Positions 5,205 through 53,063 of a DNA stretch of 64,000 nucleotides are shown piece by piece. The notes under the pieces were generated by a model. That model worked only from the letters and a program-made list of their open reading frames with translations. It did not search any database and was not told the origin of the DNA. The stretch is from Sphingomonas sp. CL5.1. GTDB taxonomy: Bacteria > Pseudomonadota > Alphaproteobacteria > Sphingomonadales > Sphingomonadaceae. Positions within the stretch are counted from its first letter, which is position 1. The number at the start of each line of letters is the position of its first letter. The stretch lies in contig NZ_CP050137.1 of the NCBI RefSeq assembly GCF_013344685.1, forward strand, positions 3,527,001-3,591,000. Direction: 5' to 3'. A program made the position numbers and the translations under genes.

Positions 5205-5426
5205 GCGAGGCAGCGGCGGCGTGCCGAATGGAAGACTGTAGCGGATGCAAAGTCGGGGTATCGAGAGGCTGTATTTTTCTGCGATCGCGGCAAAGGTCAC
5301 CTAGCGTCTACATCGATACTTGCAATCAAAAAATATCGCTACCATCAATTGCCGGGGCGCCACATAACCTCTCAACCATCAGCAGACGGACGAGCAACGA
5401 CCGCATCAACGCTGGGAGGGAGAGGA

Positions 5427-9291: not shown

Positions 9292-10713
9292 ATGCGCTCG
9301 ATCGTTATCGTGGGAAGCGGGATTGCGGGCCTCAGCGCGGCGCTCACCGCCGCGCAGAAAGGCGCGCGCGTCATCTTGGTCGACCGCGCGCCGGATGGCG
9401 AACATGGTGGCAATACGCGATACACCGAGGCTTATCTGCGCATGAAGTCCTTGGACGAAGTCGCGGATGACTTCGTCGATCACTTCATGGCGAACGCGGG
9501 TGGGTACACCGACCCCGGCATCGAACAGGAAATGGTTCGCGACCATGACGGCTGGTCCGCTCTTGCACGCAGCCAATCGGCCGTCGATCCGGAATTGCTC
9601 GGCAGCTTCGTCGAGAACGCGGGGCTCACGCTGCGATGGCTGGAACAGGCCGGGCTGACCTTTGATTTCCTCCCCACCGCGTTCATCACCACCACCACGA
9701 CGCGCTTGCTGCCGGTCGGCGGCGGCTTGGCCATGGTCGAGACGCTGACCGAAGCCTGCAAAGCTGCCGGGGTCGAGTTCCGTTTCGAGACGACCGCCCG
9801 CGCGCTGATCACTCATGATGGCCGCGTCACGGGAATCCGCACAACGAAAGGCGATCTGGAAGCGGATGCGGTGATCCTGGCGTGCGGCGGCTTCGAAGGC
9901 AATCCGGAGATGCTGGCGCGTTATATCGGTGCGGCCGCGATCAATCTGCGTCCGGTCGCGCGCGGCGGTCACTACAACAAGGGCGAAGGCATCCGGATGG
10001 CGCTCGATATCGGCGCGGCGCCCAACGGCGACTTCGGCAGCTATCACGCCGAGCCGATCGACCCGCGCTCGGGCTGCGCCGAACCGGCGATCTTCACTTT
10101 CCCATATGGCATCCTCGTCAATAAGGATGGCGACCGTTTCACCGACGAGGCGCCTGGAACAGTCGATGCGCATTATGAGTCCGTCACGCGCAGGATATTC
10201 CAGCAACGCGACGGCATCGCGTGGCTCATCACGGACGCCGGCCTCGACGACGTTCCCAACTGGAGGAAGGGCAGCCGAACCGATCAACCCGCGCTGGTCG
10301 CCGACACCCTCCCCGGCCTTGCCGGGATGATCGGGCTTCCCGCAGGCCGCTTCGCGGAGACGGTGGAACGCTTCAACGCGGCCTGCCGCGCAGGGGACTT
10401 CCGGCCGCTCGAAACGGATGGCCTGTCGACCGAGGACCTATGGCCGCCCAAATCGAATTGGGCGCGGCCGCTGACGGTCGCTCCATTTCGCGCATGGCCG
10501 ATCATTTCGGCGAACGTCTTCACGTTCGGCGGGCTCAAGATCGATCGGCACGCCCGTGTGCTCGATCTGGATGGCAACCCGATACCGGGCCTCTATACCG
10601 CTGGCGAGACCGTCGGAATCTACTATCGCACCTATACGGGATCGACGTCCGTCCTCAGGGGCGCCGTGTTCGGGCGCCTTGCGGCCCTTCATTGCGCCGG
10701 AGCCGTTGCGTGA
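9292..10713 (+). CDS. FAD-dependent dehydrogenase, fumarate-reductase/TcuA type
   Basis: A 473-residue flavoprotein of the fumarate reductase/succinate dehydrogenase/3-ketosteroid dehydrogenase family, which introduce or remove C=C bonds next to carbonyls. The FAD fold starts with VIVGSGIAGLSAALTAA. The GGNTRYTEAYLR and late IPGLYTAGETVG segments are typical, and the pattern resembles tricarballylate dehydrogenase. Start ATG 9292 follows the lyase stop by 4 bp. Its GTGA stop overlaps the next SDR gene. A second, related flavoprotein lies at 12.7 kb and a third at 19.6 kb. Confidence 0.85.
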   Translation: MRSIVIVGSGIAGLSAALTAAQKGARVILVDRAPDGEHGGNTRYTEAYLRMKSLDEVADDFVDHFMANAGGYTDPGIEQEMVRDHDGWSALARSQSAVDPELLGSFVENAGLTLRWLEQAGLTFDFLPTAFITTTTTRLLPVGGGLAMVETLTEACKAAGVEFRFETTARALITHDGRVTGIRTTKGDLEADAVILACGGFEGNPEMLARYIGAAAINLRPVARGGHYNKGEGIRMALDIGAAPNGDFGSYHAEPIDPRSGCAEPAIFTFPYGILVNKDGDRFTDEAPGTVDAHYESVTRRIFQQRDGIAWLITDAGLDDVPNWRKGSRTDQPALVADTLPGLAGMIGLPAGRFAETVERFNAACRAGDFRPLETDGLSTEDLWPPKSNWARPLTVAPFRAWPIISANVFTFGGLKIDRHARVLDLDGNPIPGLYTAGETVGIYYRTYTGSTSVLRGAVFGRLAALHCAGAVA

Positions 10714-11462
10714 CCCGCATCGCCCTTGATGGCAAGGTTGCCCTCGTCATCGGCGGCGGCGGGATGATCGGCTCCGCGATCGCCCGGCGAATGCGCCAGG
10801 GCGGCGCACTGATCGCTGTCGCCGACCGCACTCTGGGCGCGACGCGGGACAATTCGGACCGGGCATATGCCGTCGATCTGGCGGAGCCCGACGAAATCAG
10901 CGCGCTGTTCGATCGGGTGATCGCGGATTTCGGCCGGATCGATTGTCTCATCAATGCGGCGGGCATCACGTCGCAGGGATCTTTCGAAAGCATAACCGTC
11001 GAGGAATGGGATCGCGTGCAGGCGATCAATTCACGCGGCGTCTTCCTTGCCTGCCGGGCGGCAATCGCCCCCATGAAGGCGCAGAAGTCCGGCCGCATCG
11101 TCAACATCGGCTCGGTTCTGGCGAAGAACGGCGGCAATCCCCGGCCCTGGATCGATCCGGGCGAACAGATCCGCGCGGGAAACGCGGCCTATGGCGCGGC
11201 CAAATCGGCCGTGCATGCGCTGACGCTCTATCTCGCCAAGGAGTTGGCGGTGCATGGCATCACCGTCAATGCCGTGGCGCCTGGCCCCGTTGCCAGTGCC
11301 ATGACAAGCGGGTTTCCCGAGGCGTTGATCAGGCAAATACCGGCATCGCGGCTCGGCCGTGCCGATGAAGTGGCGGCGATGGCGGCATGGCTGTGCGCCG
11401 ACGAAAACGCATTCGTGACGGGCGAAATCATCGATGTGAACGGCGGACTATGGATGGATTGA
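10710..11462 (+). CDS. SDR family oxidoreductase
   Basis: A 250-residue classical SDR starting at GTG 10710 and overlapping the flavoprotein stop (GTGA). The cofactor loop is GGGGMIGSAIA, followed by LINAAGITSQ, the serine in VNIGSVLA and the catalytic YGAAK; the C-terminus ends GEIIDVNGGLWMD. It probably interconverts a hydroxyl and keto group of the same intermediate handled by the neighbouring dehydrogenase. Translational coupling supports a joint role. Confidence 0.85.
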   Translation: MTRIALDGKVALVIGGGGMIGSAIARRMRQGGALIAVADRTLGATRDNSDRAYAVDLAEPDEISALFDRVIADFGRIDCLINAAGITSQGSFESITVEEWDRVQAINSRGVFLACRAAIAPMKAQKSGRIVNIGSVLAKNGGNPRPWIDPGEQIRAGNAAYGAAKSAVHALTLYLAKELAVHGITVNAVAPGPVASAMTSGFPEALIRQIPASRLGRADEVAAMAAWLCADENAFVTGEIIDVNGGLWMD

Positions 11463-11502: not shown

Positions 11503-12666
11503 ATGATGTTGCCACGGCACAGGACACATACCGCCCGGCGCGCGCAGGTGCATGACCTGATTGTCCGGACCGGAACGCCATTCTCAAAGCGCTTTCGCCA
11601 CGGCTTGTGGCTTGCGTTCTTCCCGTTGCTGGCGGTGCAGGCGATCCCGTCGAGCGCCCAATCACCCGCACCGGCGAAGGTCGACACGACGGCGCCCGGC
11701 ACCAAGCTCATCATCCTCGGCACGGCCGGCGGCCCTCCGCTACGGCGCGAACGATCCGAACCGGCCAACCTCGTCCAGATCGGCGGCCGGAGCTACCTCT
11801 TCGACGCGGGTCTCGGCACGGTTCGCAGGCTTCTCGATGCGGGAATCCGGCCCGAGACGATCTCCACCGTTTTCATCACACATCATCATCCCGATCATGA
11901 CATCGATCTGGCGGCGCTGATCGCCAACGATGTCTTCGCCCATCCCTGGTATCCGGGCCTCGGTCCGTGGCGAATCTATGGTCCGCCGGGCACGCAGGAA
12001 ATGGTCGCCGCGGCACTCAGCTACATTGCGATCCCGATGGGCGTTTTCCATGCGGAGGGGCTGGACGGTAAGGGGGGCGAGGCCCCAACCAAAGCATCCG
12101 GAGCGCCCTGGACCTCCTATCTGGCCGATTCCGGGGCCGCCCAGTGGTTCATCGCCGAGAACCTGGTAGCGGAGGGTCTTGTGTTCTCCGACGACAAGGT
12201 GCGCGTCTATGCCGCGCGGAACAACCATTATGCATTGCTTCCGGCGGATCGCGACAACTCGTCGATGATCAGTTATTCCTACCGGATAGAAACGGCTGAC
12301 AAGACAATCGTATTCACTGGCGACACCGGCGCAAGCCCCGCCGTCGCCAGGCTCGCCAAAGGTGCGGACATCATCGTTTCGGAGGTGATGAATCCGCAGA
12401 AAACCATTGCGGGCTTGAAGATGCTTGCACAGCAGAACCACTGGTCGCCCGCGGAGCTCCAGCATGCGATCGACCACATGCTGGCGGAGCACATGACGCC
12501 GCAGCAAGTCGGCCGTCTTGCCACCGAGGCCGGCGCGCGATCGGTGGTGCTCAGCCATTTCGTGCCGGGCCTGCCCGACGGGAGCGACAGCGCGGAAGAT
12601 GTGGCCGGGGTGAAAAAGACCTTCAGCGGCAATGTATCGGCCGCGCACGATCTCGCAATTTATTGA
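11503..12666 (+). CDS. Exported MBL-fold metallo-hydrolase
   Basis: A 387-residue protein with an N-terminal hydrophobic export segment (about residues 32-50, LWLAFFPLLAVQAIPSSAQS) and a metallo-beta-lactamase domain. The zinc motif is THHHPDHD and the later metal ligand lies in FTGDTG; VVLSHFVPG gives the last histidine. It resembles periplasmic lactonase/arylsulfatase-like MBL enzymes. RBS AAAGGA lies before ATG 11503. Substrate unknown; the context suggests hydrolysis of a lactone or ester form of the substrate imported by the TBDR. Confidence 0.82.
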   Translation: MMLPRHRTHTARRAQVHDLIVRTGTPFSKRFRHGLWLAFFPLLAVQAIPSSAQSPAPAKVDTTAPGTKLIILGTAGGPPLRRERSEPANLVQIGGRSYLFDAGLGTVRRLLDAGIRPETISTVFITHHHPDHDIDLAALIANDVFAHPWYPGLGPWRIYGPPGTQEMVAAALSYIAIPMGVFHAEGLDGKGGEAPTKASGAPWTSYLADSGAAQWFIAENLVAEGLVFSDDKVRVYAARNNHYALLPADRDNSSMISYSYRIETADKTIVFTGDTGASPAVARLAKGADIIVSEVMNPQKTIAGLKMLAQQNHWSPAELQHAIDHMLAEHMTPQQVGRLATEAGARSVVLSHFVPGLPDGSDSAEDVAGVKKTFSGNVSAAHDLAIY

Positions 12667-12688
12667 AGTACTGGAGCAGGTTACCGGT

Positions 12689-14152
12689 ATGGCTCGCAAG
12701 GTCGTCATCGTCGGCGCGGGAAACGCCGCGTTATGTGCAGCGATTTCCGCTGCCGAAGCGGGCGCCGAAGTCGTCGTTCTGGAGCGTGCGCCGCAACGCG
12801 CGCGCGGCGGCAATTCGGCTTTCACGGGCGGTTGCTTTCGGGTCGCCTATGACGGCGCCTCCGACATCCAGCGCATCGTTCCGGACCTGACCGACACCGA
12901 ACGTGAAATCTCCGATTTCGGGAGCTACCCGGCGGACAAATTCCATGCCGATCTTTGCGAGATGAGCGGCTATCGGGCGGACCCGGCGCTCATCGATATA
13001 GTGGTTGAGGAGAGCCTGCCGGCAGTGTTGTGGATGCAGGCCCAAGGGGTCCGGTTCCTTCCTGCCTACGGGCGCCAGTCATTCAAGATCGATGGCCGCA
13101 ATGTCTTCTGGGGCGGGTTGACCGTGGAAACCGCCGGCGGCGGCCTGGGTCTGGTGGACGCCCTGTTCGCGCGCGCCGAAGCGCTGGGTGTCGAGATCCG
13201 TTACGACTGGAAAGTCGATGCACTGATCGGCGATCGACGCATGGTGTCCGGCGTCGTGGCGGACGGCAAGACGCTCCCGGCCGATGCCGTCATTCTCGCG
13301 GCGGGCGGCTATCACGCCAATAATGAGTGGCGCGTGCGGACGCTCGGCCCCGGCTGGGATCTGGCGAAGGTGCGTGGCTCTCGTTACAATACCGGCAACG
13401 TCATTCAGGCCGCGCTGAACATCGGCGCTCGCAGCCATGGCAATTGGTCGGGGTGCCATAGCGTGTTTTTCGATGCAGGCGCCGACGACTTCGGTACGAT
13501 CACCGCGCTGAACCAGCAGAAGAACTATTTCACGCTCGGGATCGTGGTGAATCGTCGTGGCGATCGCTTCTTTGACGAGGGCGCGAACTTCCGCAACTAC
13601 ACTTACTCTCGGATGGGCGCCGAAATCCTGAAACAGCCCGGTGGCACCGGCTGGCAGATCTTCGACGCCAGAGGTATCGCGATGCTTCCTGACGAATACC
13701 GCACCCCGCGGTCGGCACGGTTCGAGGCAGACACGCTGGAGGCACTGGCCGGCAAGCTGGATGGCCTGGACACGACCGGCTTCCTTCGGACGGTGGCCGA
13801 ATATAACGCGGCTATCGATGCCGACACGCCGTTCAACCCCGCGGTGCTGGACGGGCGCCGCACGCATGGCCTCGCGATCGACAAGTCCAACTGGGCCCGC
13901 GCGATCAGCCAGCCCCCGTTTGTCGCCTATGAAGTGACGTGCGGGATCACGCTGACCTTCGGCGGCCTCGCGATTGACGCGCAAGCGCGCGTGCAGAACG
14001 AGGAAGGCTCCCCGATCGGAAATCTCTATGCCGCGGGCGAACTGGTCGGCGGCCTCTATTACGACCGTTATCCTGGCGGCGCGGGCCTGACGAGCGGCGC
14101 GGTGTTTGGCCGGATCGCGGGGCGCGAGGCGGCTATCTCCAGTCCGACGTAA
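12689..14152 (+). CDS. FAD-dependent dehydrogenase, TcuA-like
   Basis: A 487-residue flavoprotein closely resembling tricarballylate dehydrogenase (TcuA): KVVIVGAGNAALCAAISA, then RGGNSAFTGGCFRVAYDG, and LYAAGELVGGLYY near the end. TcuA oxidises tricarballylate to cis-aconitate; related proteins oxidise other saturated acids or ketones. RBS GGAGCAGG precedes ATG 12689. Its last 20 bp overlap the convergent LysR gene. No TcuB-type electron carrier is encoded nearby; the only carrier visible is the ETF pair at 21-22 kb. Confidence 0.85.
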   Translation: MARKVVIVGAGNAALCAAISAAEAGAEVVVLERAPQRARGGNSAFTGGCFRVAYDGASDIQRIVPDLTDTEREISDFGSYPADKFHADLCEMSGYRADPALIDIVVEESLPAVLWMQAQGVRFLPAYGRQSFKIDGRNVFWGGLTVETAGGGLGLVDALFARAEALGVEIRYDWKVDALIGDRRMVSGVVADGKTLPADAVILAAGGYHANNEWRVRTLGPGWDLAKVRGSRYNTGNVIQAALNIGARSHGNWSGCHSVFFDAGADDFGTITALNQQKNYFTLGIVVNRRGDRFFDEGANFRNYTYSRMGAEILKQPGGTGWQIFDARGIAMLPDEYRTPRSARFEADTLEALAGKLDGLDTTGFLRTVAEYNAAIDADTPFNPAVLDGRRTHGLAIDKSNWARAISQPPFVAYEVTCGITLTFGGLAIDAQARVQNEEGSPIGNLYAAGELVGGLYYDRYPGGAGLTSGAVFGRIAGREAAISSPT

Positions 14153-15041
14153 TGGCCGCGACGGCTTCGCGGAGCCATGTCACGGCGACATCGTCCTCCT
14201 GCGCAGGCTTCCACAGCGCGGAGATCGGCAAATCTGGCGTCGGCAGCGGCGGCGTGATGAATTTCAGCCGCTTTTCCTGCGTCATCGGAACAGCGAGCCG
14301 CTTCGGCAGGATAGCCACCGCGTTGGTCTGAGCCGCGATGTGGGGAAAGACGAGATAATTCCCCATGGTCAGGCGATAGCCCGTCTCGGCATCCAACTCG
14401 TCCCACAGCATGGTCTCGTGATTGACGGTGGTGCGTGGGGTGGCGGAATAACCGATATGAGGCAGCGCGAGGAAAGCGTCCGCAGGCATCCCCTCATATA
14501 GCGCCTCGTTGTCCAATGCCCCGACGCACACATAGGTATCGCTATAGAGCAGTCGCCGTTTCAATCCCGCGATCCGCAGCGCATTGCTGGGAATGATGAA
14601 CATATCGACGTCAGGCCTCGTCGCGCGGGTGAGGGTCTGCGGCTTCATGTCGACGAAATCGAAGGAGAGATTGGGGGCTTCGGCCGCAGCACGCGCAAGA
14701 AGCTCGGGCCCGATCAACGCGACCACATAATCCACGGTCGCGATGACCACGCGCCTCTCGACGCTCGCCAGCCGGCCATGGGATTTCTCAAGAACACCGC
14801 GCACGTTCGCGAGGAGGCGGACGACATCCGGCATGATCTGTTCCGCAAGCGGCGTCGGCACCATCTCGCTCCCGGTCCAGTTGAACAGATCGTCATCAAG
14901 GCTGGCCCGCAATCGGTTGAGCGCCGCGCTGACGGTCGATTGCGCGAGATTGAGCGTCTTCGCCGCGGCGGAAACGTTCCGCGTCATCCAGATGGCCTCA
15001 AGCGTCGTCAGCAGGTTGATGTCGAAATCGCGGAGTTGCAT
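14133..15041 (-). CDS. LysR-type transcriptional regulator
   Basis: A 302-residue LysR regulator. The helix-turn-helix occupies about residues 18-40 (NVSAAAKTLNLAQSTVSAAL), followed by a substrate-binding domain with NodD/SyrM-like features. It is transcribed away from the 11-gene meta-cleavage operon and overlaps the 3' end of the TcuA-like gene, so it lies between both catabolic blocks. LysR proteins usually bind a T-N11-A palindrome in the divergent promoter; such a site is present at 15053-15071. The effector is probably a pathway intermediate. Confidence 0.9.
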   Translation of the reverse strand: MQLRDFDINLLTTLEAIWMTRNVSAAAKTLNLAQSTVSAALNRLRASLDDDLFNWTGSEMVPTPLAEQIMPDVVRLLANVRGVLEKSHGRLASVERRVVIATVDYVVALIGPELLARAAAEAPNLSFDFVDMKPQTLTRATRPDVDMFIIPSNALRIAGLKRRLLYSDTYVCVGALDNEALYEGMPADAFLALPHIGYSATPRTTVNHETMLWDELDAETGYRLTMGNYLVFPHIAAQTNAVAILPKRLAVPMTQEKRLKFITPPLPTPDLPISALWKPAQEDDVAVTWLREAVAAITSDWR

Positions 15042-15071: not shown

Positions 15072-15164
15072 TGGCTATCGAAACATATCGTTTGTGACAA
15101 TACCAAAGCGATAATATCCGTGGGCCAACGCCATTCGCGAACATGGCGATCAGGAGACGGATGG

Positions 15165-16064
15165 ATGACCGAGCTGCGCAACCTTGCGTACCTTGTGGTG
15201 GCCACGAACGACCTCGACGCATGGCGGACCTATGCATCGGACGTGATCGGCATGGGCATTTGCCAGCCACGCGCGGATACGATCGGCCTGCGCATGGACG
15301 ATCATCCCTGGCGCATCCTCATCGAGCGAGGCGATGATGACGATCTGACCCACGCGGGCTGGGACGTGGGAACGCCCGACGCGCTTGACGCCTATGTAGA
15401 GGGCTTGCGGAAGAAGGGGGCGGATGTGCGCGAGGAGAGCGCCGACCGGGCCAACGCGCGCTCGGTCACGCGCCTGTACAGCCTTGCCGATCCCAATGGA
15501 TTCACGCACGAATTCTTCTGCAGCCGTACCGGCCGGAACGATGACGGCGGCGACCTGTCGGCGGTGATCCGGGGGCCCGGCTTCCACACCGGAGATCTCG
15601 GCATCGGGCATATCCTGCCCGTCGCGCGGGATTATGATGCGTCGGTGCGCTGGTATCAGGACGTGCTCGGCCTGAAATATACCGATCGCATCCGCCAGCA
15701 GATGGCTCCGGGTGTCTACGCGGACGCGACGTTCTTCCACTCCGCGACCGGCCGCCATCATTCGCTGGCCACGGGCGCATTTCCGTCGCGCAAGCGCCTC
15801 AACCATCTGATGCTGGAATTCTGCGACATGAACGATGTCGGCGCGGCGTTCGATCGGGCGAAGGCCGCGGACGTGCCCATCATTCTCGAGCTGGGCCATC
15901 ACCCCAACGACCAGATGTTCAGCTTCTACATGGTGACCCCATCCGGCTTCGGCCTCGAACTCGGCTGGGGAGGCATCACCGTCGACGACGCGACCTGGAA
16001 GCCGCGCATCCACGACGTGATGTCGGATTGGGGGCACAAGCGCAACATCATCACCATCGCCTGA
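15165..16064 (+). CDS. Type I extradiol dioxygenase (VOC family)
   Basis: A 299-residue two-domain vicinal-oxygen-chelate protein like BphC/HsaC, which open a catechol ring next to the hydroxyls with Fe(II) and O2. The C-terminal domain carries the expected ligands: His in IGHILPVA, His in LNHLMLEF and Glu in GFGLELGWGG, with the conserved Tyr in MFSFYMVTPSG. The start was set at ATG 15165 because AGGAGA precedes it. First gene of the operon; the next gene is a meta-cleavage-product hydrolase, which supports ring cleavage. Confidence 0.9.
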   Translation: MTELRNLAYLVVATNDLDAWRTYASDVIGMGICQPRADTIGLRMDDHPWRILIERGDDDDLTHAGWDVGTPDALDAYVEGLRKKGADVREESADRANARSVTRLYSLADPNGFTHEFFCSRTGRNDDGGDLSAVIRGPGFHTGDLGIGHILPVARDYDASVRWYQDVLGLKYTDRIRQQMAPGVYADATFFHSATGRHHSLATGAFPSRKRLNHLMLEFCDMNDVGAAFDRAKAADVPIILELGHHPNDQMFSFYMVTPSGFGLELGWGGITVDDATWKPRIHDVMSDWGHKRNIITIA

Positions 16065-16088: not shown

Positions 16089-16970
16089 ATGTCAATCTGG
16101 ATCGACTTCCTCGGTGCCGAAATCCGTTACGTGGATACGCCGACCTTCGGGCGCGTGCGCATTGCGGAGGCCGGCAGGGACAATCCCGAAGCGCTGTTCC
16201 TGATGCATGGCATCGGCGGGCATATCGAGGCCTATTCGAAGAACGTCGTCACGCTCGGCAAGCATTTCCACGTCATCGCCTTCGACTTCGTGGGGCATGG
16301 CCTCTCCGAGAAAAAGACGGACATCGAATATCCGCCGCAGAACTATGCCGAGCAGCTCAAGGAGTTGATGGATGTGCTGGGCATCGGGAAGGCGCACATC
16401 TCCGGGGAATCGCTGGGCGGGATGGTCGCCGCGCATTTCGCGATCAAATATCCCGAGCGCACGATGCGGGTCATCCTCAACACGACGGGCGGCATCCCGA
16501 TCGCGAGCGAAAAGGGCCGGCAGGACCTGATCGACCTCGCCAACCTCACCCAGGCCAACGTCGGCAAGCCGCCGAGCTTCGAGAGCATCCTGGGCCGGAT
16601 GCGCTGGCTGATCTACGAAGGCAACTGGGATTTGCTGACCGAGGAACTGGTTGAATCGCGCCTAGCGATCTACACCCAGCCGGATTTCCAGAAATCGGCA
16701 CCGCTCGTGTTCGCACGCCTCAACAAGGCGAAGGATGGCGACACCATGCCCGACATGGTCGATCTCGAACGGATCGAAGCCGAGACCTTGCTGCTCTGGA
16801 CGACGCACAATCCGATCCATGACGTGGCCGCAGCCGAACTGGCGTTGCCGCGCCTGCGCAAGGGCAAGATGTACGTCATGCGGAAAGATTGCGGTCACTG
16901 GCCGCAATACGAGAGCCCCGATGAATTCGACGCGATCGTCGTCAAATACCTCAATACCGGGGACGTATAG
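16089..16970 (+). CDS. Meta-cleavage-product hydrolase (alpha/beta hydrolase)
   Basis: A 293-residue alpha/beta hydrolase of the BphD/HsaD group, cleaving the C-C bond of the ring-fission product to a dienoate and an acid. Motifs: FLMHGIGGH oxyanion region, nucleophile SGESLGGM, acid in NPIHDVAA and base in DCGHWPQYESP. It is preceded by GGTAAGGA and lies 24 bp after the extradiol dioxygenase gene, the usual order in biphenyl and steroid pathways. Confidence 0.9.
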   Translation: MSIWIDFLGAEIRYVDTPTFGRVRIAEAGRDNPEALFLMHGIGGHIEAYSKNVVTLGKHFHVIAFDFVGHGLSEKKTDIEYPPQNYAEQLKELMDVLGIGKAHISGESLGGMVAAHFAIKYPERTMRVILNTTGGIPIASEKGRQDLIDLANLTQANVGKPPSFESILGRMRWLIYEGNWDLLTEELVESRLAIYTQPDFQKSAPLVFARLNKAKDGDTMPDMVDLERIEAETLLLWTTHNPIHDVAAAELALPRLRKGKMYVMRKDCGHWPQYESPDEFDAIVVKYLNTGDV

Positions 16971-16973: not shown

Positions 16974-17552
16974 ATGGCGACGGCCCCCGCCCTCCCCCCG
17001 GACAAGGGCCCGGCTCCGGCCACCGCGTCAACGCCGGAGCTGTTCCGGCAGGGCATGCGACGGCTGGCGGGCGCCTGCACGATCATCACCTCGGTCGCGC
17101 CCGGCCAGGGACGCGAGGGCTGGGCCGGGCTGACGGCGACGGCGGTCGCGTCGGTGACCGCCGAACCGGCGCGGCTGCTGGTCTGCATCAATCGTTCGAC
17201 GTGGGCGCACGGCATCATATCCAAATCGCGCGTGCTGGGCGTGAACGTGCTCGGCGAAGACTGTCTCTCGCTCGCGAAGCGGTTCGCTGGGGGCGTCCGG
17301 CCGGAAGACAAGTTTGCGGACGGGAGCTGGCTGACCACGACATCCGGCGCGCCACTCCTCGCCAACGCGCTCGCCAGTTTCGACTGCCTGGTCGTCGAAA
17401 GCATGGAGGCGAGCACGCACGAGGTCTTCGTGTGCGACGTGCTCGGCGTGCTGCTGCGTGAACCGGGCGGCGAGCCGCTGATCTATTTCGACGGGGCATT
17501 TCTGACGGAGCGCCGCCCCGACGACCGGAATTCCCGAAGGAGCGAACAATGA
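16974..17552 (+). CDS. Flavin reductase of a two-component monooxygenase
   Basis: A 192-residue flavin reductase-like (HpaC/HsaB-type) protein that supplies reduced FMN/FAD to the partner oxygenase using NAD(P)H. The core motif GLTATAVASVTAEPARLLVC is typical of the FMN-binding split-barrel reductases. It has a proline-rich N-terminal extension of about 20 residues. Its stop overlaps the ATG of the oxygenase gene (ATGA), which agrees with a coupled two-component enzyme. Confidence 0.88.
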   Translation: MATAPALPPDKGPAPATASTPELFRQGMRRLAGACTIITSVAPGQGREGWAGLTATAVASVTAEPARLLVCINRSTWAHGIISKSRVLGVNVLGEDCLSLAKRFAGGVRPEDKFADGSWLTTTSGAPLLANALASFDCLVVESMEASTHEVFVCDVLGVLLREPGGEPLIYFDGAFLTERRPDDRNSRRSEQ

Positions 17553-18754
17553 CAACTGCCGTTATCGCAACGCCGGCCGGCGATGCAATTCCGACCAGCG
17601 AGGAACTCGTTGCGCGCGCCGCCGCGATGGTCCCCGCCCTGCGCGCCCGCGCCGACGAAATCGAACAGGCGCGGAAGGTCCCCGGCGACGTCATCGCGAT
17701 GTTCAGGGATGCCGGGTTCTTCCGTATCCTCCAGCCGAAGAAATTCGGCGGCTGGGAGATGAACCCGATCGTCTTCATGCGTGTCCTCGGCGAACTGGGC
17801 CGCGGATGCTGCGCCAGCGCGTGGAGCATGATGATCCTCGGGGTGCACAATTGGGAATTCGGCCTGATGGACGAGCGCGCCGCCGCGGACGTCTGGGGGG
17901 AAGACGACGAGACGATCATCGCCTCCTCATATCCGCCGATGGGCGAACTGACGAAGGTCGCGGGCGGCTGGCAACTCAAGGGGCGCTGGCCCACCTCAAG
18001 CGGCAGCGACCACGGCGCCTGGGCGTTCATCGGCGCGCTCGAACGTAACGAGAAGGGCGTTCCGGTCGATCGCCACGCCCTGCTCGTGAAGCGCGACGAT
18101 TATGAGATCATCGACGACTGGTACACGTTCGGCCTCGCCGGCACGGGCTCGAAGAGCGTGCTGATCAAGGATGCCTTCGTTCCCGACCACCGCGCCCATT
18201 CGATGATCGACTACAAGCTCGATCATCGCGGCACCAATTATCTTTTCCCGTTCGCGATGGTCTTCTATTCGTCGGTTTCGTCCGTTATCATCGGGTTCGC
18301 GCAAGGCGCGATCGACGTCTTCATCGACCAGATGAAGGTACGCAGCGATAATGGCACCGGCGCGAGGACCGCGCTCAGCCCCTATGTGAAGGATCGGCTC
18401 GCCAACGCCGTGACCCGCGTCCGCTCTTGCCGTGCGCGCATGGAGCAGATGATGGCGCATGCGACCAGCATCGTCGAAAAGCGCGAACTGATCTCGATCG
18501 ACGATCGCATCCACTACATGCTCGATATGGCGCGGATCGGGCGGGAATGCGAGGAAGCCGTCCTGACTCTTTACAAATGCACCGGCGCGCGCGGCGTTTA
18601 CAGATCAAACCCGATCCAGCGCTATCTGCGCGACACATTGGTCGCGGCCAATCACATCACGCAGGATGCCGACAACAATGCCGGCGCGCTCGGCGGTTAC
18701 CTGCTGAGCGGCGACCTGCCGCCGATGCTCTACGCCAGGCCGGATCAGGGCTGA
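17549..18754 (+). CDS. Flavin-dependent phenol hydroxylase, HsaA/HpaH-C2 type
   Basis: A 401-residue acyl-CoA-dehydrogenase-fold oxygenase (group D flavin monooxygenase), which uses reduced flavin from the adjacent reductase to ortho-hydroxylate a phenol to a catechol. Signature regions are PKKFGGWEMNP, CCASAWSMMILGVHNWE and TYFGLAGTGS-like FGLAGTGSKSVLIKDAFVPD. It lacks the acyl-CoA dehydrogenase base pattern. The product would be the substrate of the extradiol dioxygenase. Closest known logic is HsaA-HsaB of steroid A-ring degradation, or 4-hydroxyphenylacetate hydroxylase. Confidence 0.88.
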   Translation: MTTAVIATPAGDAIPTSEELVARAAAMVPALRARADEIEQARKVPGDVIAMFRDAGFFRILQPKKFGGWEMNPIVFMRVLGELGRGCCASAWSMMILGVHNWEFGLMDERAAADVWGEDDETIIASSYPPMGELTKVAGGWQLKGRWPTSSGSDHGAWAFIGALERNEKGVPVDRHALLVKRDDYEIIDDWYTFGLAGTGSKSVLIKDAFVPDHRAHSMIDYKLDHRGTNYLFPFAMVFYSSVSSVIIGFAQGAIDVFIDQMKVRSDNGTGARTALSPYVKDRLANAVTRVRSCRARMEQMMAHATSIVEKRELISIDDRIHYMLDMARIGRECEEAVLTLYKCTGARGVYRSNPIQRYLRDTLVAANHITQDADNNAGALGGYLLSGDLPPMLYARPDQG

Positions 18755-18761: not shown

Positions 18762-19562
18762 ATGTCGATCCGTATCTGGCATCAGAGCTTCACCGTCCTC
18801 AGCGATCTCGCCGCTTATGACGAGGCGCTGAGGCGGCACTTCCGGCGCGTGTCCCGGCCCGACACGGTGATCGACATGCACGGGATGCGCGCGGGCACCT
18901 ATCGCACGAACTATCCGGGTAACGACATCAAGCACGTCGGATTCCAGTTCCTGCATTCCATCCAGTTCCTGCAAGGTGCGCTGGCCGCCGAGCGCCAGGG
19001 CTATGACGCTTATGCGTTGAGCACGCTGCCCGAACCCGGCTTGCGCGAGATCCGCGCTTTGGTTTCGATCCCCGTGGTCGGTTACGGCGAATGCGCGGCG
19101 CGGGCCGCGGTCGATGACGGACGGCGTTTCGGTGCCCTCGTCTTCATCCCCGAACTGGCCGAATTGTACCGCGACAACGTCCGGCGGCACGGGCTGGGTT
19201 GTCGGCTGGTCGGGGTCCATGACGTCGGCTTCCGCTTCAACGACGTGCTCAGCGCCTTCGATAGCCCCGGGCCGCTGATCGATCGATTTCGTGCAGCCGC
19301 GCGACGCCTGATCGCCGGTGGTGCCGAAGCGATCGTGCCGGGCGAGGCGCCGCTGAACGTGTTGCTGGCCATGAACGGAATTTCATCCGTGGACGGCGTT
19401 CCGGTGATCGACTCGCTCGGCGCGTGGGTCCGCGCGGCAGAGTCGGCCGTCGACGAACGCCGCGCGGGAAAAGCGCCGGCCGGAAAGGGCTATTTCGACG
19501 CTACGCCCGATCCGGCCCGGCGCGATGAGATCCTCGAATTCTACGGGTTGAACCGGATATGA
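18762..19562 (+). CDS. Asp/Glu racemase superfamily protein
   Basis: A 266-residue protein of the Asp/Glu/hydantoin racemase superfamily. The first cysteine motif is present (VGYGECAARAA). The second half-site, which in racemases and maleate isomerases contains another cysteine, reads AIVPGEAPLNVLL with no cysteine. Single-cysteine relatives such as arylmalonate decarboxylase do not racemise amino acids. Its stop overlaps the next ATG (ATGA), so it is coupled with the flavoprotein and ETF genes. Reaction unknown. Confidence 0.75.
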   Translation: MSIRIWHQSFTVLSDLAAYDEALRRHFRRVSRPDTVIDMHGMRAGTYRTNYPGNDIKHVGFQFLHSIQFLQGALAAERQGYDAYALSTLPEPGLREIRALVSIPVVGYGECAARAAVDDGRRFGALVFIPELAELYRDNVRRHGLGCRLVGVHDVGFRFNDVLSAFDSPGPLIDRFRAAARRLIAGGAEAIVPGEAPLNVLLAMNGISSVDGVPVIDSLGAWVRAAESAVDERRAGKAPAGKGYFDATPDPARRDEILEFYGLNRI

Positions 19563-20908
19563 GCGATCTCATCGTCATCGGCGGCGGAGCAGCCGGCTGG
19601 TCCGGCGCGCTCGCGGCAGCCCAACGCGGGCTCGAAGTCACCCTGCTCGAAAAGCTGCCCGATTCGGGCGGCTCGTCGGCGCTGAGCGGCGGTTGCCTCG
19701 CCTTTGCCGGAACCGATCTGCAAATCGCGCAGGGCATTGCCGACAGCCCCGACATCCTGTTCGACGACCTGCGCGAGGTCGGCAAGGACGTGAACGACGA
19801 ATCGCTGGTCCGCGCCTATTGCGATGCCCAACTGGCCACATACGCTTGGCTGAACGACGCGGGGGTGCGTTTCAGCCCCGTTCTGGAGACCGCTTCCGGC
19901 CAATCGCTGCCGCGAGTGCATACCGTCGATCCCGCCGACATGGTCCGTCAATTGCGGATGGCCGCCGAAGCGACAGGTCTGGTTGCCTATCGGCCGAATA
20001 CGTCCGCCACGGCGCTCGTTCGCGACGGCTCGGGATGCGTTACCGGCGTCGCGCTTGCGCACGGCGATATCATCGACGCGCGATCGGGCGTCCTGATTGC
20101 CAGCGGCGGCTTCGCCCGGAATGCCGAATTGCTCGAACGTTATGCGCCGCATCTCGCCGAGGCGGTGTTCGTGGCCGGCGCCGGTTCGCAGGGGGATGGC
20201 CTGCTTATGGCCCGGAAGCTCGGCGCCGATGTGCGGGACATGGAATTCATCAAGGGCACCTTTGGCAAGCATCCCACAGATGAAACCAACGATCACAGCC
20301 TTCAGGCGGTCTACAAGGGCGCCATCGCGGTCAATCAGGACGGCCGGCGATTCGTCGACGAGAGCATCTCGTACAAGCTGCTCGGGGACGCCGTCATGGC
20401 GCAGCCCTGGCACACGGCCTATCAGATCATGGATCAGGGGATATTCGACACCGGCGACAATCGCGTTCGCATCCTCGATTTCGGGCGGCGGCTGGAGGAA
20501 GGGCTGTTTTACGTCGCCGACAGCCTGGCCGAACTCGCCGCGCAGATCGAGGTCGATCCCGAAACGCTCGAAGCCACCGTGAGCCGCTACAATGCCTCGG
20601 TCGATGACGGCCATGATGCCGAATTCGGCCGGAAGCATCTCGTCCACCATTTCGGCGCGCTACGGAAAATCGAGACAGCACCCTTTTACGCCTATCCTTC
20701 GACCGCGGTGGTATTCGGCACCTATTGCGGCCTGCGCATCGATCGGGATGCTCGCGTCCTCAACATGGACGGCAAGGTCATTCCGGGTCTCTATGCTGCC
20801 GGCGAGGTGACCGGCGGCTTCCACGGCGCCGCATATATGACGGGCTCCGCGCTCGGCAAGGCGGTGGTGTTCGGGCGGCTCGCCGTGCTCGGGATCGCCG
20901 CGCGATGA
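19559..20908 (+). CDS. Fumarate-reductase/KstD-type FAD dehydrogenase
   Basis: A 449-residue soluble flavoprotein of the fumarate reductase/3-ketosteroid-dehydrogenase family: LIVIGGGAAGWSGALAAA at the N-terminus, GGSSALSGGCLAFAG, and VIPGLYAAGEVTGGFHGAAY near the end. No heme-binding motif, membrane helix or signal peptide is present, so it needs a soluble electron acceptor. Its ends overlap the racemase gene and the ETF beta gene (ATGA both times). The simplest reading is a dehydrogenase that passes electrons to the ETF encoded next to it. Confidence 0.85.
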   Translation: MSDLIVIGGGAAGWSGALAAAQRGLEVTLLEKLPDSGGSSALSGGCLAFAGTDLQIAQGIADSPDILFDDLREVGKDVNDESLVRAYCDAQLATYAWLNDAGVRFSPVLETASGQSLPRVHTVDPADMVRQLRMAAEATGLVAYRPNTSATALVRDGSGCVTGVALAHGDIIDARSGVLIASGGFARNAELLERYAPHLAEAVFVAGAGSQGDGLLMARKLGADVRDMEFIKGTFGKHPTDETNDHSLQAVYKGAIAVNQDGRRFVDESISYKLLGDAVMAQPWHTAYQIMDQGIFDTGDNRVRILDFGRRLEEGLFYVADSLAELAAQIEVDPETLEATVSRYNASVDDGHDAEFGRKHLVHHFGALRKIETAPFYAYPSTAVVFGTYCGLRIDRDARVLNMDGKVIPGLYAAGEVTGGFHGAAYMTGSALGKAVVFGRLAVLGIAAR

Positions 20909-21654
20909 ACGTTCTGGTGCTCGTCGCGGGCGTGCTGGACCCCAAATGGCCGATAGCGCCGGAGGGGCGGAATCTGCCGGTGCGCGACGCGGGCAGATTG
21001 ATCTTGAGCCGGTTCGACGAGGCCGCGCTGGAGATCGCGCTGAAGATCAGGGACGGCTTGCCTGACGCCAATGTCCGCGCGCTCGTCGTCGGCGGCGGCG
21101 AGGCGGAAAGGCTGGCGAGATCGATCGTTGCGTTCAACGTCACCGATGTCGCCATCCTCACGGCCGACGCGCTGTGGGATCAGGGAGCGGCGGCCCGGTC
21201 GATGGCTGGCGAAATCAGGGATGCCGATCTCATATTGATCGGCCGCGAGTTCGGCGATTGCGACGATGGCCTTGTCCCGCCGATGCTTGCCGCCTTGCTC
21301 GGCTTCGCATTCTTCGGATGCGTCCAATCGGTCATGGTGACCGACACCGTCGAACTGCTGCGCGAAACGGGACGATACGAGGAGCGCCTCATCGCCGATC
21401 GCCCGATCCTTGCCAGCGTCACCAACGATCGCCGGACCCGTCTGCGCAAGCCGCTGATGAAGAACGTCGTGATCGCCCGCCAGGCGCATATCGCAAGACG
21501 CAACCCGCCGTCGTGCCGGCAGGCTGATCTTGAACTGCACGGGGTGTCGGCGTTCTCCAGCGCACGCGAAACCATATCGTGCCGGCTCCTTGCGGGCACG
21601 AATACGGAGCAGGCCGAGCAGCTCGCGGACTTGCTGATAGAAGCGCGCAGATGA
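20905..21654 (+). CDS. etfB: Electron transfer flavoprotein beta subunit
   Basis: A 249-residue ETF beta/FixA-family protein (MNVLVLVAGVLDPKWPIAPE, FDEAALEIALKI, DADLILIGREFGDCDDG). With the alpha subunit it carries electrons from flavin dehydrogenases to the respiratory chain. The usual motif around the AMP site is somewhat divergent (DCDDGLVPPMLAALLG instead of the common DxxxGxxGPxxA pattern). Translation is coupled to the flavoprotein upstream and ETF alpha downstream, so it is a dedicated rather than housekeeping copy. Confidence 0.8.
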   Translation: MNVLVLVAGVLDPKWPIAPEGRNLPVRDAGRLILSRFDEAALEIALKIRDGLPDANVRALVVGGGEAERLARSIVAFNVTDVAILTADALWDQGAAARSMAGEIRDADLILIGREFGDCDDGLVPPMLAALLGFAFFGCVQSVMVTDTVELLRETGRYEERLIADRPILASVTNDRRTRLRKPLMKNVVIARQAHIARRNPPSCRQADLELHGVSAFSSARETISCRLLAGTNTEQAEQLADLLIEARR

Positions 21655-22391
21655 GCGGCTGGCGGATCGTCAACGTCATGGTCGCGGGCACCGAGGTTGC
21701 GTCGGAACCTTCGTTTGCGGAGCGCACGCTGCTCGTCTTTCCGGCGAGCGGAGAGGGAGAGGCGCTGGCGGGTGCCTTCGCCGCCCTGCACGGGGACTAT
21801 TTGCTCGGCCGCTTATCTGCCTTCGCCATCGAAGACGACAAGCTCGTGGCGACACGAATGGCCTATGGGGGCAGGATCTCCCTTCAGGTCCGGCTGGCGC
21901 GTGGCATCGCGGTTGCGACCATGCGCGAACCTTGCGCCGGGACCGAAACGATCTCGCTCGGCCGACCGTCATCCGTTCCGGTCGCGCGTTCGCCACTGGC
22001 GGGAAACAGGATCGGACTGGAAGGCGCGCACATCGTCGTAAGCGGCGGCCGCGGCCTAGACGAAACGGGTTTCGCATTGCTGGACCGGATCGCGGCGCAG
22101 GTCGATGGCGCGGTCGGCGCAAGCCTGCCCGCGATTGACCTCGGCCTGGCGTCGGTCTCCCGCCAGATTGGCCAGTCGGGAAAATTCGTGACGCCCGCTT
22201 TGTATCTCGCGGTCGGCCTTTCGGGAACGCCGCAGCATCTCGCCGGCATTGGCTCCGCTACCCGCATTGTCGCGATCAACGCCGATCGCGACGCACCGAT
22301 CTTTCGCTTTGCCGAACTGGGCGTCGTCGCCGACGCGAGGACATTGTTGCCGGAATTGACCGCCGCGCTCGGTCGGCGTGTCTCCACATAG
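21651..22391 (+). CDS. etfA: Electron transfer flavoprotein alpha subunit
   Basis: A 246-residue ETF alpha/FixB protein. The C-terminal FAD-binding domain is clear: VVSGGRGLDETG, GASLPAIDLG, QIGQSGKFVTPALYLAVGLS and IVAINADRDAPIFRFAELG. It is shorter than the usual 310 residues because the N-terminal domain is reduced. ATG 21651 overlaps the ETF beta stop (ATGA). No ETF:quinone oxidoreductase gene is in the window, so electrons must leave through a chromosomal copy. Confidence 0.85.
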   Translation: MSGWRIVNVMVAGTEVASEPSFAERTLLVFPASGEGEALAGAFAALHGDYLLGRLSAFAIEDDKLVATRMAYGGRISLQVRLARGIAVATMREPCAGTETISLGRPSSVPVARSPLAGNRIGLEGAHIVVSGGRGLDETGFALLDRIAAQVDGAVGASLPAIDLGLASVSRQIGQSGKFVTPALYLAVGLSGTPQHLAGIGSATRIVAINADRDAPIFRFAELGVVADARTLLPELTAALGRRVST

Positions 22392-22402: not shown

Positions 22403-23194
22403 ATGACGGGGATGACCCATCACGACCTCGCCACCCGCCTGCGCGACGCCTACACCAGCGGCGCCCTCCCTCCCCTGCGCGACGGCCTGATGCCGACCGA
22501 CGCGGACGGTGCCTACGCCGTCCAGGCCATCAACACCGCGCACTGGCAAAGTGAAGGTCGCCGGATCGTCGGCCGGAAGGTGGGCCTGACGGCCAGGGCC
22601 GTCCAGAACCAGCTGGGCGTCGATCAACCCGACTTCGGCGTGCTCTTCGCCGATATGGCGATCGCCGATGGAGGATCGCTGCTCGCATCCAGGGTCCTGC
22701 AACCCAAGGCGGAGGCCGAAGTGGCGATCATGCTGCAGAACGATCTGCCAGAGCCGGACACGACGCCCGAGCAAGTCGCCGAAGCGGTAGGATCGGTGGC
22801 CGCCGCGATCGAGATCGTCGACAGCCGGATCGCCGACTGGAAGATAACCTTCGCGGATACCGTCGCGGATAACGGCTCTTCGGCGTTCTACGTATTGAGC
22901 GACACGCGCAAGCCGCTGGCCGGCCTCGATCTGTGGACGTGCGGCATGGCGCTGGAGATCAATGGCATTGTGGCCTCGCTGGGCGCCGGCGTGGCGTGTC
23001 TGGGGCATCCGCTGAACGCCGCGGCCTGGCTCGCCTCCACGCTCGCCCGGCGCGGCGAGCCGCTGAAGGCCGGCGATATCGTGCTGACGGGCGCGCTCGG
23101 GCCGATGGTGACGATCAATCCGGACGACCATGTGAAGGCGAGCATCGGCGGACTCGGATCGTGCAGCTTCACCTTTTCGGATGACCGCGCATGA
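22403..23194 (+). CDS. mhpD: 2-keto-4-pentenoate hydratase-type enzyme
   Basis: A 263-residue FAH-superfamily hydratase that adds water to 2-hydroxypenta-2,4-dienoate to give 4-hydroxy-2-oxovalerate. [20 protein letters not shown] and the metal ligands in [10 protein letters not shown] and [10 protein letters not shown] are typical. RBS GAAGGA precedes ATG 22403. It is the first of the three classical lower-pathway genes, each overlapping the next. Confidence 0.88.
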
Positions 23195-24147
23195 GCACCA
23201 GGACCAAAGTTGCGATCATCGGCTCCGGCAACATCGGAACCGATCTGATGATCAAGATCATGCGCCTTTCCAAGGTGCTTGAGATGGGCGCCTTCGTCGG
23301 GATCGATCCGGAAAGCGACGGATTGAAGCGCGCGGCCCGGTTGGGCGTCGCAACCACCGCGGAGGGCATCGAAGGCCTTGCGGCGATGCCCGAATTCGCC
23401 GGGATCGAGATCGTGTTCGACGCGACCTCGGCCGGCGCGCATCAACGCAACAATGCGCTTCTCCAAGCGGCGGGAAAACGCGTCGTCGATCTCACGCCGG
23501 CGGCGGTCGGCCCCTATGTCGTGCCGCCGGTCAATGGCGGCGCGCATCTCGACGCCCCCAATGTGAACATGGTGACCTGCGGCGGTCAGGCGACCATTCC
23601 CATCGTCGCTGCGGTGTCGCGCGTCGCCAAGGTCCATTACGGGGAGATCGTCGCATCCATCGCGTCGAAGTCGGCCGGTCCGGGCACGCGCGCCAATATC
23701 GACGAATTCACCGAGACGACGAGCCGCGCGATCGTCGAGGTAGGCGGGGCGGAACGGGGCAAGGCCATCATCGTCCTGAACCCGGCCGAACCGCCGCTCA
23801 TCATGCGCGATACGGTCTATTGCCTGTGCGACGACGCCGATCAGGAAGCGATCCGCAAGAGCATCGAGGCTATGGTTGTCGAAGTGCAATCCTATGTTCC
23901 GGGTTATCGTCTCAAGCAGCCGGTACAGTTCGAGCATATCGGCTCGAACAACCCGTTGCACATTCCCGAAATGAACGATGACAAGGGCGGCTTTTACACC
24001 GGAATAAAGGTCAGCGTCTTCCTCGAGGTGGAGGGCGCGGCGCACTATCTCCCTGCTTTCGCTGGCAATCTCGACATCATGACTTCGGCTGCGTTGCGCA
24101 CGGCCGAGCGAATGGCCTTGAACATGCGCGAGGGAGTGGCCGCCTGA
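23191..24147 (+). CDS. mhpF: Acetaldehyde dehydrogenase (acylating)
   Basis: A 318-residue MhpF/BphJ/HsaG-type enzyme that oxidises acetaldehyde or propionaldehyde to the acyl-CoA. The Rossmann motif is [12 protein letters not shown], the catalytic cysteine sits in [10 protein letters not shown], and [17 protein letters not shown] is the conserved substrate-channel segment. It overlaps its neighbours on both sides and should form a channelling complex with the aldolase that follows. Confidence 0.92.
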
Positions 24148-25187
24148 TGTCCGATCCATCCGCCACCAAGCTCTATATCCAGGACGTGACGCTTCGCGAC
24201 GGCATGCACGCCATTCGCCATCAATATGGACTCGACCACGTCAAGACGATCGCCAGGGCATTGGACCGGGCCAGGGTCGATGCAATCGAAGTCGCGCACG
24301 GCGACGGACTGCGCGGTTCGAGCTTCAACTATGGTTTCGGCGCCCATACCGATTGGGATTGGATAGGCGCCGTCGCCGAAGTGCTAGAACATGCCGTTCT
24401 TACGACACTGCTTCTGCCCGGCATCGGCACCATCCACGATCTGCGGCACGCCTACGAAATGGGCGTGCGATCGGTGCGTATCGCTACTCATTGCACCGAG
24501 GCAGACGTCGCGAAACAGCACATAGAGGCGGCGCGCGAACTCGGCATGGATGTCTCCGGCTTCCTGATGATGAGCCACATGGCCGAGCCCGACGCGCTGG
24601 CGCAGCAGGCGCTGCTGATGGAGATCTATGGCGCCCATTGCGTCTACATCACGGACAGCGGCGGTGCGATGACCATGGACCAATATGCCACAAGTTTGCA
24701 GGCATATGATCGGGTGCTGAAGCCCGAAACGCAACGCGGCGTCCACGCCCACCACAATCTCAGTCTCGGCGTGGCAAATTCAATCGTCGCCGTGCAGGCC
24801 GGAGCGATCCGGGTCGATGCCAGCCTCGCCGGCATGGGAGCGGGCGCCGGCAATGCGCCGCTCGAGGTGTTCATCGCCGCGGCCGATCGTATCGGCTGGC
24901 ACCACGGCTGCGACCTTCATGCCCTGATGGACGCGGCCGAGGAATTGGTTCGCCCGCTGCAGCACCGCCCCGTGCGCGTGGACCGCGAGACGCTGAGCCT
25001 TGGTTACGCGGGTGTCTATTCCAGCTTCCTGCTACATGCGGAGAAGGCGGCGGCCGAATATGGCCTGGACACTCGCTCGATCCTTGTCGAACTGGGGCGT
25101 CGCAAGATGGTCGGCGGTCAGGAGGATATGATCGTCGACGTCGCGCTTGATCTGGCAAAAGGCCGGGAACGCGCGCTGCCTTCCTGA
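24147..25187 (+). CDS. mhpE: 4-hydroxy-2-oxovalerate aldolase
   Basis: A 346-residue DRE-TIM aldolase of the MhpE/BphI/HsaF family, splitting 4-hydroxy-2-oxo acids to pyruvate and an aldehyde. The signature is [14 protein letters not shown] with metal-binding [13 protein letters not shown] later; the C-terminal communication domain is present. The ATG overlaps the dehydrogenase stop (TGATG). Last gene of the 11-gene operon; the sequence after it decays into relics. Confidence 0.92.
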
Positions 25188-33349: not shown

Positions 33350-33389
33350 TGATATCTCCGGTCGAATATTCGCGGCGGAAGAAACAGGG

Positions 33390-52932: not shown

Positions 52933-52950
52933 GACGCGTCCCTCCAAATT

Positions 52951-52968
52951 TATTATATGCATAAAATA
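52951..52968. promoter_or_regulatory. 18-bp pseudo-palindrome, copy 4
   Basis: TATTATATGCATAAAATA; read on the minus strand it is TATTTTATGCATATAATA, one base different from the nitrilase copy. Its TATAAT lies about 20 bp before the dioxygenase ATG and could itself be the -10 element, so a bound regulator would block transcription. Confidence 0.6.
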
Positions 52969-53063
52969 AATCACCGGAGCGGTCGATGCAAGCGTCGGGG
53001 CAAAATTCCGTCCCGATGCCGGCGGGTCGCCGCGATGGCTACCCCGCCTCTGCCTCGAAGCCG

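Follow-up and report, generated by a model that had tools for sequence, protein, structure and literature searches.

A racemase-fold, flavoprotein and electron transfer flavoprotein gene module within a conserved catabolic island of Sphingomonas sp. CL5.1

The stretch analysed here (the window: 64,000 nucleotides of Sphingomonas sp. CL5.1, G000:C1:3527001-3591000, whose genome of 4.57 Mb is assembled in two contigs) carries four consecutive genes. They encode a racemase-fold protein (Rac, P0001), an FAD_binding_2 dehydrogenase of the ketosteroid dehydrogenase (KSTD) type (P0002) and the beta and alpha subunits (EtfB, P0003, and EtfA, P0004) of a private electron transfer flavoprotein (ETF). 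ATGA overlaps of 4 bases at 19559, 20905 and 21651 join the four genes, and a 7-base gap, hence no overlap, lies between the stop codon of the preceding monooxygenase gene and the start of the racemase gene. The genes for an extradiol dioxygenase, a hydrolase, a flavin reductase and an HsaA-like monooxygenase come before this module, and those for a hydratase, an acetaldehyde dehydrogenase and an aldolase after it (Table 1). The original prediction had described the overlapping genes as embedded in such a meta-cleavage operon, and the coordinates together with Pfam and NCBIfam scans bear this out. The Pfam scans of both ETF subunits were made on the longer listed open reading frames (ORFs).

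The module recurs in 14 distinct loci: the window, L003-L008, L042 (G228), L044 (G118), L045/46 (G033), L053/54 (G557), L009 (Siccirubricoccus) and L040 and L041 (Variovorax plasmids), L055 (G455) being counted as L007. Their hosts are Sphingomonadaceae, a Hyphomonadaceae metagenome-assembled genome, another family of the same class (G557), Siccirubricoccus and the two Variovorax plasmids. All 14 contain Rac, the P0002-type flavoprotein, EtfB, EtfA and TcuA2, a TcuA-like flavoprotein encoded upstream in the window. The loci were mostly collected by EtfB similarity, so that EtfB is present there by construction; searches with Rac serve as an independent check and returned four genomes (the window's own included), in every one of which the ETF pair adjoins Rac. 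The module is rare. Using EtfB it is found in 4 of 298 genomes of the family at E below 1e-60, and using Rac in 3 of 296 genomes of the order at E 1e-40 and 2 of 398 of the phylum at E 1e-30, G000 being counted each time. The gene junctions are also retained: EtfB and EtfA overlap by 4 bases in 14/14 loci, the flavoprotein gene and EtfB by 4 bases in 11/14 (+13 bases in L009; not neighbours in either Variovorax plasmid), and Rac and the flavoprotein gene by 4 or 1 bases in 12/14 (+2 bases in L053, apart in L009). A chance adjacency of the four genes, which the original prediction had proposed to check by their co-occurrence across genomes, is ruled out by this conserved linkage.

The conserved unit exceeds the four genes. 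The meta-cleavage operon lies in the middle of a larger island, itself conserved and spanning about 5157-25187, whose upstream part reads on the same strand as TonB-dependent receptor, isochorismatase-fold protein, PrpB-like lyase, TcuA1, short-chain dehydrogenase/reductase (SDR), MBL-fold gene and TcuA2, followed by a divergent LysR regulator. Relatives of the extradiol dioxygenase, flavin reductase, HsaA-like monooxygenase, LysR regulator and isochorismatase-fold protein are each present in 10 of the 13 other loci, of TcuA1 in nine, of the TonB receptor in nine (26% identical in G557), of the SDR in eight and of the PrpB-like lyase in six. TcuA1, the SDR and the isochorismatase-fold protein accompany TcuA2 wherever the analysed DNA reaches, since the loci lacking one of them are L003-L006 (and L008 for the SDR), in which that DNA ends before or inside the stretch. 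The isochorismatase-fold protein of L009 and the Variovorax loci is only 37-39% identical, and tblastn of locus DNA revealed neither the PrpB nor the LysR gene in these three and no relative of the MBL-fold gene in any of the 13. The lower-pathway genes are found near the module less regularly (hydratase 6/13, acetaldehyde dehydrogenase 5/13, aldolase 4/13). No tRNA was found in the whole window. An FAA-hydrolase gene and an adjoining cupin gene (50864-51778 and 51802-52974 of the window, minus strand) resemble a gentisate-type ring-cleavage pair.

Table 1. Genes of the module and of the surrounding island, in window coordinates (bit scores as obtained; cut-offs are those of the curated models)
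Feature	Position	Strand	Details
Rac (P0001), racemase-fold protein	18762..19562	+	266 aa; PF01177 73.7 bits
P0002, KSTD-type FAD_binding_2 dehydrogenase	19559..20908	+	449 aa; PF00890 206.8 bits; TIGR01813
EtfB (P0003), private ETF beta	20905..21654	+	249 aa; PF01012 48.3 bits
EtfA (P0004), private ETF alpha	21651..22391	+	246 aa; PF00766 87.2 bits
TonB-dependent receptor	5157..7766	+	PF00593
Isochorismatase-fold protein	7838..8431 (start inferred)	+	PF00857
PrpB/2-methylisocitrate-lyase-like lyase	8436..9287	+	TIGR02317 273.6 bits, cut-off 354.4
TcuA1, TcuA-like FAD_binding_2 flavoprotein	9292..10713 (start inferred; listed ORF from 9046)	+	
SDR oxidoreductase	10710..11462 (start inferred)	+	PF13561 (longer ORF)
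MBL-fold gene within the island	11503..12666	+	
TcuA2, TcuA-like FAD_binding_2 flavoprotein	12632..14152	+	NF006130 548.5 bits, cut-off 369
LysR regulator, divergent	14133..15041	-	relative in the 10 other extradiol loci
Extradiol dioxygenase (BphC/HsaC type)	15120..16064	+	TIGR03213 265.1 bits, cut-off 366.45
Meta-cleavage-product alpha/beta hydrolase (HsaD-like)	16089..16970	+	NF045632 139 bits, cut-off 400
Flavin reductase component	16974..17552	+	PF01613
HsaA-like flavin monooxygenase	17549..18754	+	NF045629 302.9 bits, cut-off 450; PDB 2rfq E 2e-65
2-Oxopent-4-enoate-type hydratase	22403..23194	+	NF008461 321.1 bits, cut-off 350
Acetaldehyde dehydrogenase (acylating)	23191..24147	+	TIGR03215 474.2 bits, above cut-off
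4-Hydroxy-2-oxovalerate aldolase	24147..25187	+	TIGR03217 566.6 bits, above cut-off

The expected co-occurrence of the module with extradiol operons holds for 11 of the 14 loci (the window, L003-L008, L042, L044, L045 and L053), all of which have both the extradiol and the HsaA-like gene, and fails for L009, L040 and L041, where neither is near the module. Among 12 genomes or records searched for HsaA-type genes, the Siccirubricoccus genome gave only matches of 27% at E 1e-20 and the two Variovorax records (plasmids, not chromosomes) gave none. An intrinsic tie to ring cleavage is therefore unsupported, because three loci possess the module without these genes nearby. The surroundings also vary: in sphingomonads the module occurs together with the TonB receptor, and in Variovorax together with genes for tripartite tricarboxylate transporter (TTT) binding proteins and MmgE/PrpD. 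In Variovorax SRS16 (L040, 4197-16538) a two-partner secretion pair (filamentous hemagglutinin and ShlB-type) of about 12 kb stands between the flavoprotein gene and the LysR and ETF genes; it is absent from the corresponding place in PBL-E5 (L041). Among the 11 extradiol loci, an HsaD-like C-C hydrolase gene lies between the extradiol and flavin reductase genes in five and is absent there in six. A BphD-type hydrolase (27% identical) follows the SDR in L044 and L046 and an FAA-hydrolase-type gene follows EtfA in L008 and L042, an apparent non-orthologous replacement. Arylsulfatase-like genes, 58-59% identical to each other (L054:2390-3817 in G557 and L046:8576-10093 in G033), occur in these two distant relatives directly after the SDR or its neighbouring hydrolase, which makes a sulfate ester a possible substrate.

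The flavoprotein P0002 is, by score, closest to the flavocytochrome c fumarate reductases and urocanate reductases (1qjd, 6t85): its best NCBIfam model is TIGR01813 (297.2 bits, above the cut-off of 285.45) and among PDB sequences urocanate reductase 6t85 matches best (E 3e-60). However, it contains no CxxCH heme motif, and Y272, F386 and Y426 align with positions 402, 504 and 544 of Fcc3, whose R402, H504 and R544 we take to be the functional residues of the fumarate reductase. An ordinary flavocytochrome c can thus be ruled out. When P0002 is aligned by MAFFT with TcuA1, TcuA2 and L057 (a KSTD-like protein of the same genome, used as a bridge between P0002 and 4c3x), Y272 and Y426 share columns with two tyrosines of L057. 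The counterparts of these in the 4c3x construct stand at chain positions 338 and 507, presumably Tyr318 and Tyr487 of KSTD1 offset by a 20-residue tag. P0002 therefore shares with the KSTDs (KSTD1, 4c3x; 7p18) the FAD_binding_2 family and, by sequence alignment, both active-site tyrosines. It differs from them in its best score, in falling far below the KSTD model NF005882 (178.4 bits for the whole protein, cut-off 788) and in having an adjoining private ETF. Neither tyrosine varies across the 14 rows of the P0002 alignment, which includes two relatives without ETF (46-47% identical) and leaves L005 and L041 outside, and both are kept in TcuA1 and TcuA2; the more distant paralogue L061 retains only the second. 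Because the KSTD tyrosine pair is kept in all three, we read P0002, TcuA1 and TcuA2 as putative ketone-type dehydrogenases. TcuA2 passes the TcuA tricarballylate dehydrogenase model NF006130, and TcuA1, scanned as the longer ORF, falls short of it (350.3 bits, cut-off 369).

Domains of the ETF family are found in both subunits of the private ETF (PF00766 in alpha, PF01012 in beta). PF01012 in alpha reaches just 26.0 bits (cut-off 26.7), and neither subunit, in its longer ORF form, passes a curated NCBIfam cut-off. The private ETF departs from canonical ETFs (human, 1efv; Geobacter, 5ow0) in several ways. Its alpha subunit has GASLPAID where these have GASRAAVD or GASRGAVD, so that the flavin-contacting Arg is replaced by Leu (L159 in P0004); this replacement is invariant in 14/14 rows, and the housekeeping ETF alpha of G000 keeps the Arg. 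The accessible text of PMC12630350 ascribes a higher potential of the oxidised/semiquinone couple to this Arg together with one Ser and one His. The motifs ASLPA, GQSG and SGTPQH of alpha are conserved in all 14 loci. We assume that the Ser and His partners map to GQSG and TPQH; they appear to be kept, and only part of the semiquinone stabilisation may be lost. In the laboratory, Talfournier 2001 reportedly linked a semiquinone stabilisation of about 200 mV to the Arg. A less stable semiquinone is predicted for the private ETF: without the Arg by which the anionic semiquinone is stabilised, the protein should probably carry two electrons at a time, not one.

The beta subunit has TNDRRTRLRKPLMKN in place of the housekeeping TDLRLNEPRYASLPN when aligned with the housekeeping ETF beta (L047), and the housekeeping-like segment NEPRYASLPNIMKAK is not found in it. 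The pattern RLRxPLxK is kept at this segment, which we take to be the partner-docking loop of ETF, in all 13 loci (of 14) where it can be read. In the family-genome search, the other matches listed are general ETFs, at most 29% identical to the private beta. The 10 sphingomonad and Hyphomonadaceae loci encode an alpha subunit of 244-255 residues; in the remaining four it has 323-339, and the extra residues are at the N-terminus. A single-chain AlphaFold2 model of alpha (mean pLDDT 86.8, pTM 0.52) retrieves ETF alpha chains as its best structural matches with a large root-mean-square deviation; the model supports the ETF alpha fold and leaves the domain arrangement unsettled. The genome contains one candidate match to ETF-quinone oxidoreductase. 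A coupled, private ETF had been called unusual, and a phrase search found no open-licence paper combining 'electron transfer flavoprotein' with 'ketosteroid dehydrogenase'; translational coupling of an ETF to a KstD-like flavoprotein thus seems unreported. As for the proposed ETF-linked dehydrogenation, the tyrosine pair fits dehydrogenation of a ketone or enone. That the ETF itself lacks some canonical features had not been noticed.

A structure search with a predicted single-chain model, together with PF01177, assigns Rac to the Asp/Glu racemase-type fold, as had been proposed. What had escaped notice is that its catalytic cysteines are missing. The allantoin and hydantoin racemases (3qvj, 5lfd, 2eq5) have a Cys dyad, whereas T88 and E195 of Rac occupy both cysteine positions of 2eq5; these residues are invariant in 13/13 rows and the same in L041, so that all 14 loci are without catalytic cysteines. 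Maleate isomerase and arylmalonate decarboxylase are further from Rac than these racemases, and neither an ordinary racemase nor a maleate isomerase is compatible with the lack of the dyad. In the accessible text of PMC12661438, the dyad is conserved across the racemase superfamily and EcL-DER has a Thr/Cys pair, so that Thr has a precedent; no precedent for Glu was seen there, and no search was aimed at one. The isochorismatase-fold protein is similarly altered, with L-V or A-V in 10/10 rows where 3kl2 has C-C. One cysteine of that pair is presumably the nucleophile of isochorismatase-fold hydrolases. A maleamate route of the NicE/NicF type, to which the pairing of Rac with an isochorismatase-fold protein would point, is ruled out, both proteins here being without the cysteines. 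An arylmalonate decarboxylase family protein (PF17645, a family with the racemase-type fold) is encoded at 32594-33598 (minus strand) of the window, ~7 kb beyond the operon.

Taken together, these features suggest a catabolic redox module in which between one and three ketone dehydrogenases of the KSTD type give their electrons to a private ETF, itself probably a two-electron carrier. We consider this slightly better than an even bet (a probability of roughly 0.55). P0002, probably with TcuA1 and TcuA2, would take hydrogens from positions adjoining the ketone group of an intermediate that is alicyclic or polyfunctional. The private ETF would then re-oxidise the reduced FAD of P0002 in a two-electron step and feed the electrons into the respiratory chain, the simplest route being ETF-quinone oxidoreductase and then quinone. 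Rac would probably work on that substrate or product too, most likely by alpha-proton chemistry such as a tautomerisation or epimerisation, E195 serving as the base in place of the cysteines. In Sphingomonas sp. CL5.1, the product or precursor would be a phenol for the neighbouring hydroxylase, extradiol dioxygenase, hydrolase, hydratase and aldolase.

Several observations weigh against this scheme. We deduce electron transfer from P0002 to the ETF from gene context and alignment, and in the Variovorax plasmids the ETF pair does not adjoin the flavoprotein. In all three relatives of P0002 examined at 44-47% identity (V. paradoxus, Sagittula and Citricoccus), no ETF gene is annotated or detected within 9 kb; therefore the fold as such needs no ETF. 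G000 gave no match to TcuB (TIGR02484), which speaks for the scheme but weakly, as the model matched only 1 of 14 control genomes, none over the cut-off. About 80 N-terminal residues are missing from ETF alpha in 10/14 loci, and EtfB of L006 (Sphingobium sp. 15-1) has an in-frame stop ~21 codons in, near 10001-10070, either a pseudogene or a sequencing error. Of the genes compared over nine loci, those for the ETF subunits show the lowest identities (EtfB 45-57%, EtfA 52-61%, extradiol dioxygenase 65-71%, P0002-type flavoprotein 74-79%, HsaA-like monooxygenase 81-86%, Rac 81-87%), a possible sign of relaxed function. Against 26 family loci, the housekeeping ETF beta of G000 shows 58-87% identity (median 83%), a comparison that uses genomes other than these nine and is indicative only. 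Finally, the proposed pathway assigns no step to the PrpB-like and isochorismatase-fold genes.

What the dehydrogenases act on can be viewed in two ways. The SDR and the KSTD-type flavoproteins may oxidise an alicyclic ring ketone to a phenol before cleavage, Rac aiding tautomerisation, with HsaA-like hydroxylation and extradiol cleavage to follow. We regard this as a serious candidate a little short of even odds. An SDR and three flavoproteins with the KSTD tyrosine pair occupy one island, and HsaA-, HsaC- and HsaD-like genes lie directly before the module; in G557 the genes form one continuous run (extradiol dioxygenase, hydrolase, flavin reductase, HsaA-like monooxygenase, Rac, flavoprotein, EtfB, EtfA, TcuA2, isochorismatase-fold protein, TcuA1 and SDR). 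Where ring-cleavage genes are not nearby, as in L009 and Variovorax, the module could yield a phenol that is degraded elsewhere, but these three loci nevertheless count against aromatisation, the proposed ring substrate is hypothetical, and the PrpB-like lyase and isochorismatase-fold genes are left unexplained. These last find a place if Rac, P0002, the ETF, TcuA1, TcuA2, the SDR, the isochorismatase-fold protein and the PrpB-like lyase instead degrade a carboxylic acid freed by the hydrolase, other bacteria importing a similar acid through TTT systems. As a joint proposal this is possible, if more tentative. It would suit the Variovorax module, without extradiol genes and next to TTT and MmgE/PrpD genes, as well as the PrpB-like lyase (which matches methylisocitrate lyase in PDB at E 1e-57) and the score of TcuA2 over the TcuA cut-off. 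Yet P0002 has the KSTD tyrosine pair in place of carboxylate-binding residues, all five MmgE/PrpD genes of G000 lie outside the window, and no PrpB gene is seen in L009, L040 or L041, which have no extradiol genes nearby.

The role of the ETF can likewise be read differently. It might deliver electrons to the flavoprotein, which would then be a reductase, or mainly serve TcuA2 or TcuA1, reduced P0002 being re-oxidised by oxygen. The ETF-free relatives of P0002, the presence of TcuA2 in all 14 loci, the 4-base overlap of EtfA with TcuA2 in G557 and that of TcuA2 with the flavoprotein gene in Siccirubricoccus would agree with such a client, but the flavoprotein gene overlaps EtfB in 11/14 loci and we judge either version unlikely. 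It seems very improbable that the private ETF is decaying, a relic that evolves fast and is partly lost, while the housekeeping ETF serves the enzyme. The low identities of the private ETF, its truncated alpha and the stop in L006 are what decay would produce; both genes are nonetheless open in the other 13 loci, and the alpha motifs persist throughout.

One of the closest known systems is the HsaABCD pathway for steroid ring A, which likewise has HsaA-, HsaC- and HsaD-like genes in one operon; here, all three likenesses are below the curated cut-offs and there are additional Rac, ETF, TcuA, isochorismatase-fold and PrpB-like genes. An estrogen or other steroid as the substrate is rejected, the only pointers being a strain name (Sphingobium estronivorans) and the weak HsaA likeness. 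In the fde and ifc flavonoid and isoflavone clusters, of which the ifc genes serve isoflavone breakdown, the phenolic ring is hydroxylated before further breakdown, as here (PMC11069340, accessible text). The main text of that paper does not contain 'electron transfer' and uses 'racemase' just for a gut enzyme (TcuA was not among the terms searched there). Within the open-licence literature covered by phrase search, no description of this gene set was found.

A broader proposal follows from these comparisons, and as a whole we regard it as rather doubtful. An ETF subgroup without the semiquinone-stabilising Arg, and in one lineage also without the N-terminus of alpha domain I, would be an obligate two-electron carrier dedicated to KSTD-type ketone dehydrogenases, and the redox steps of a catabolic pathway not yet described would centre on it. 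The Rac and isochorismatase-fold partners in this pathway would both have lost their cysteines, perhaps owing to thiol-reactive enone or quinone intermediates. If true, ketone dehydrogenases of the FAD_binding_2 class would join the clients of ETF, and the subgroup would provide a natural experiment on the role of the conserved ETF arginine. It would also point to a ring-degradation pathway, with defined genes, across several bacterial families.

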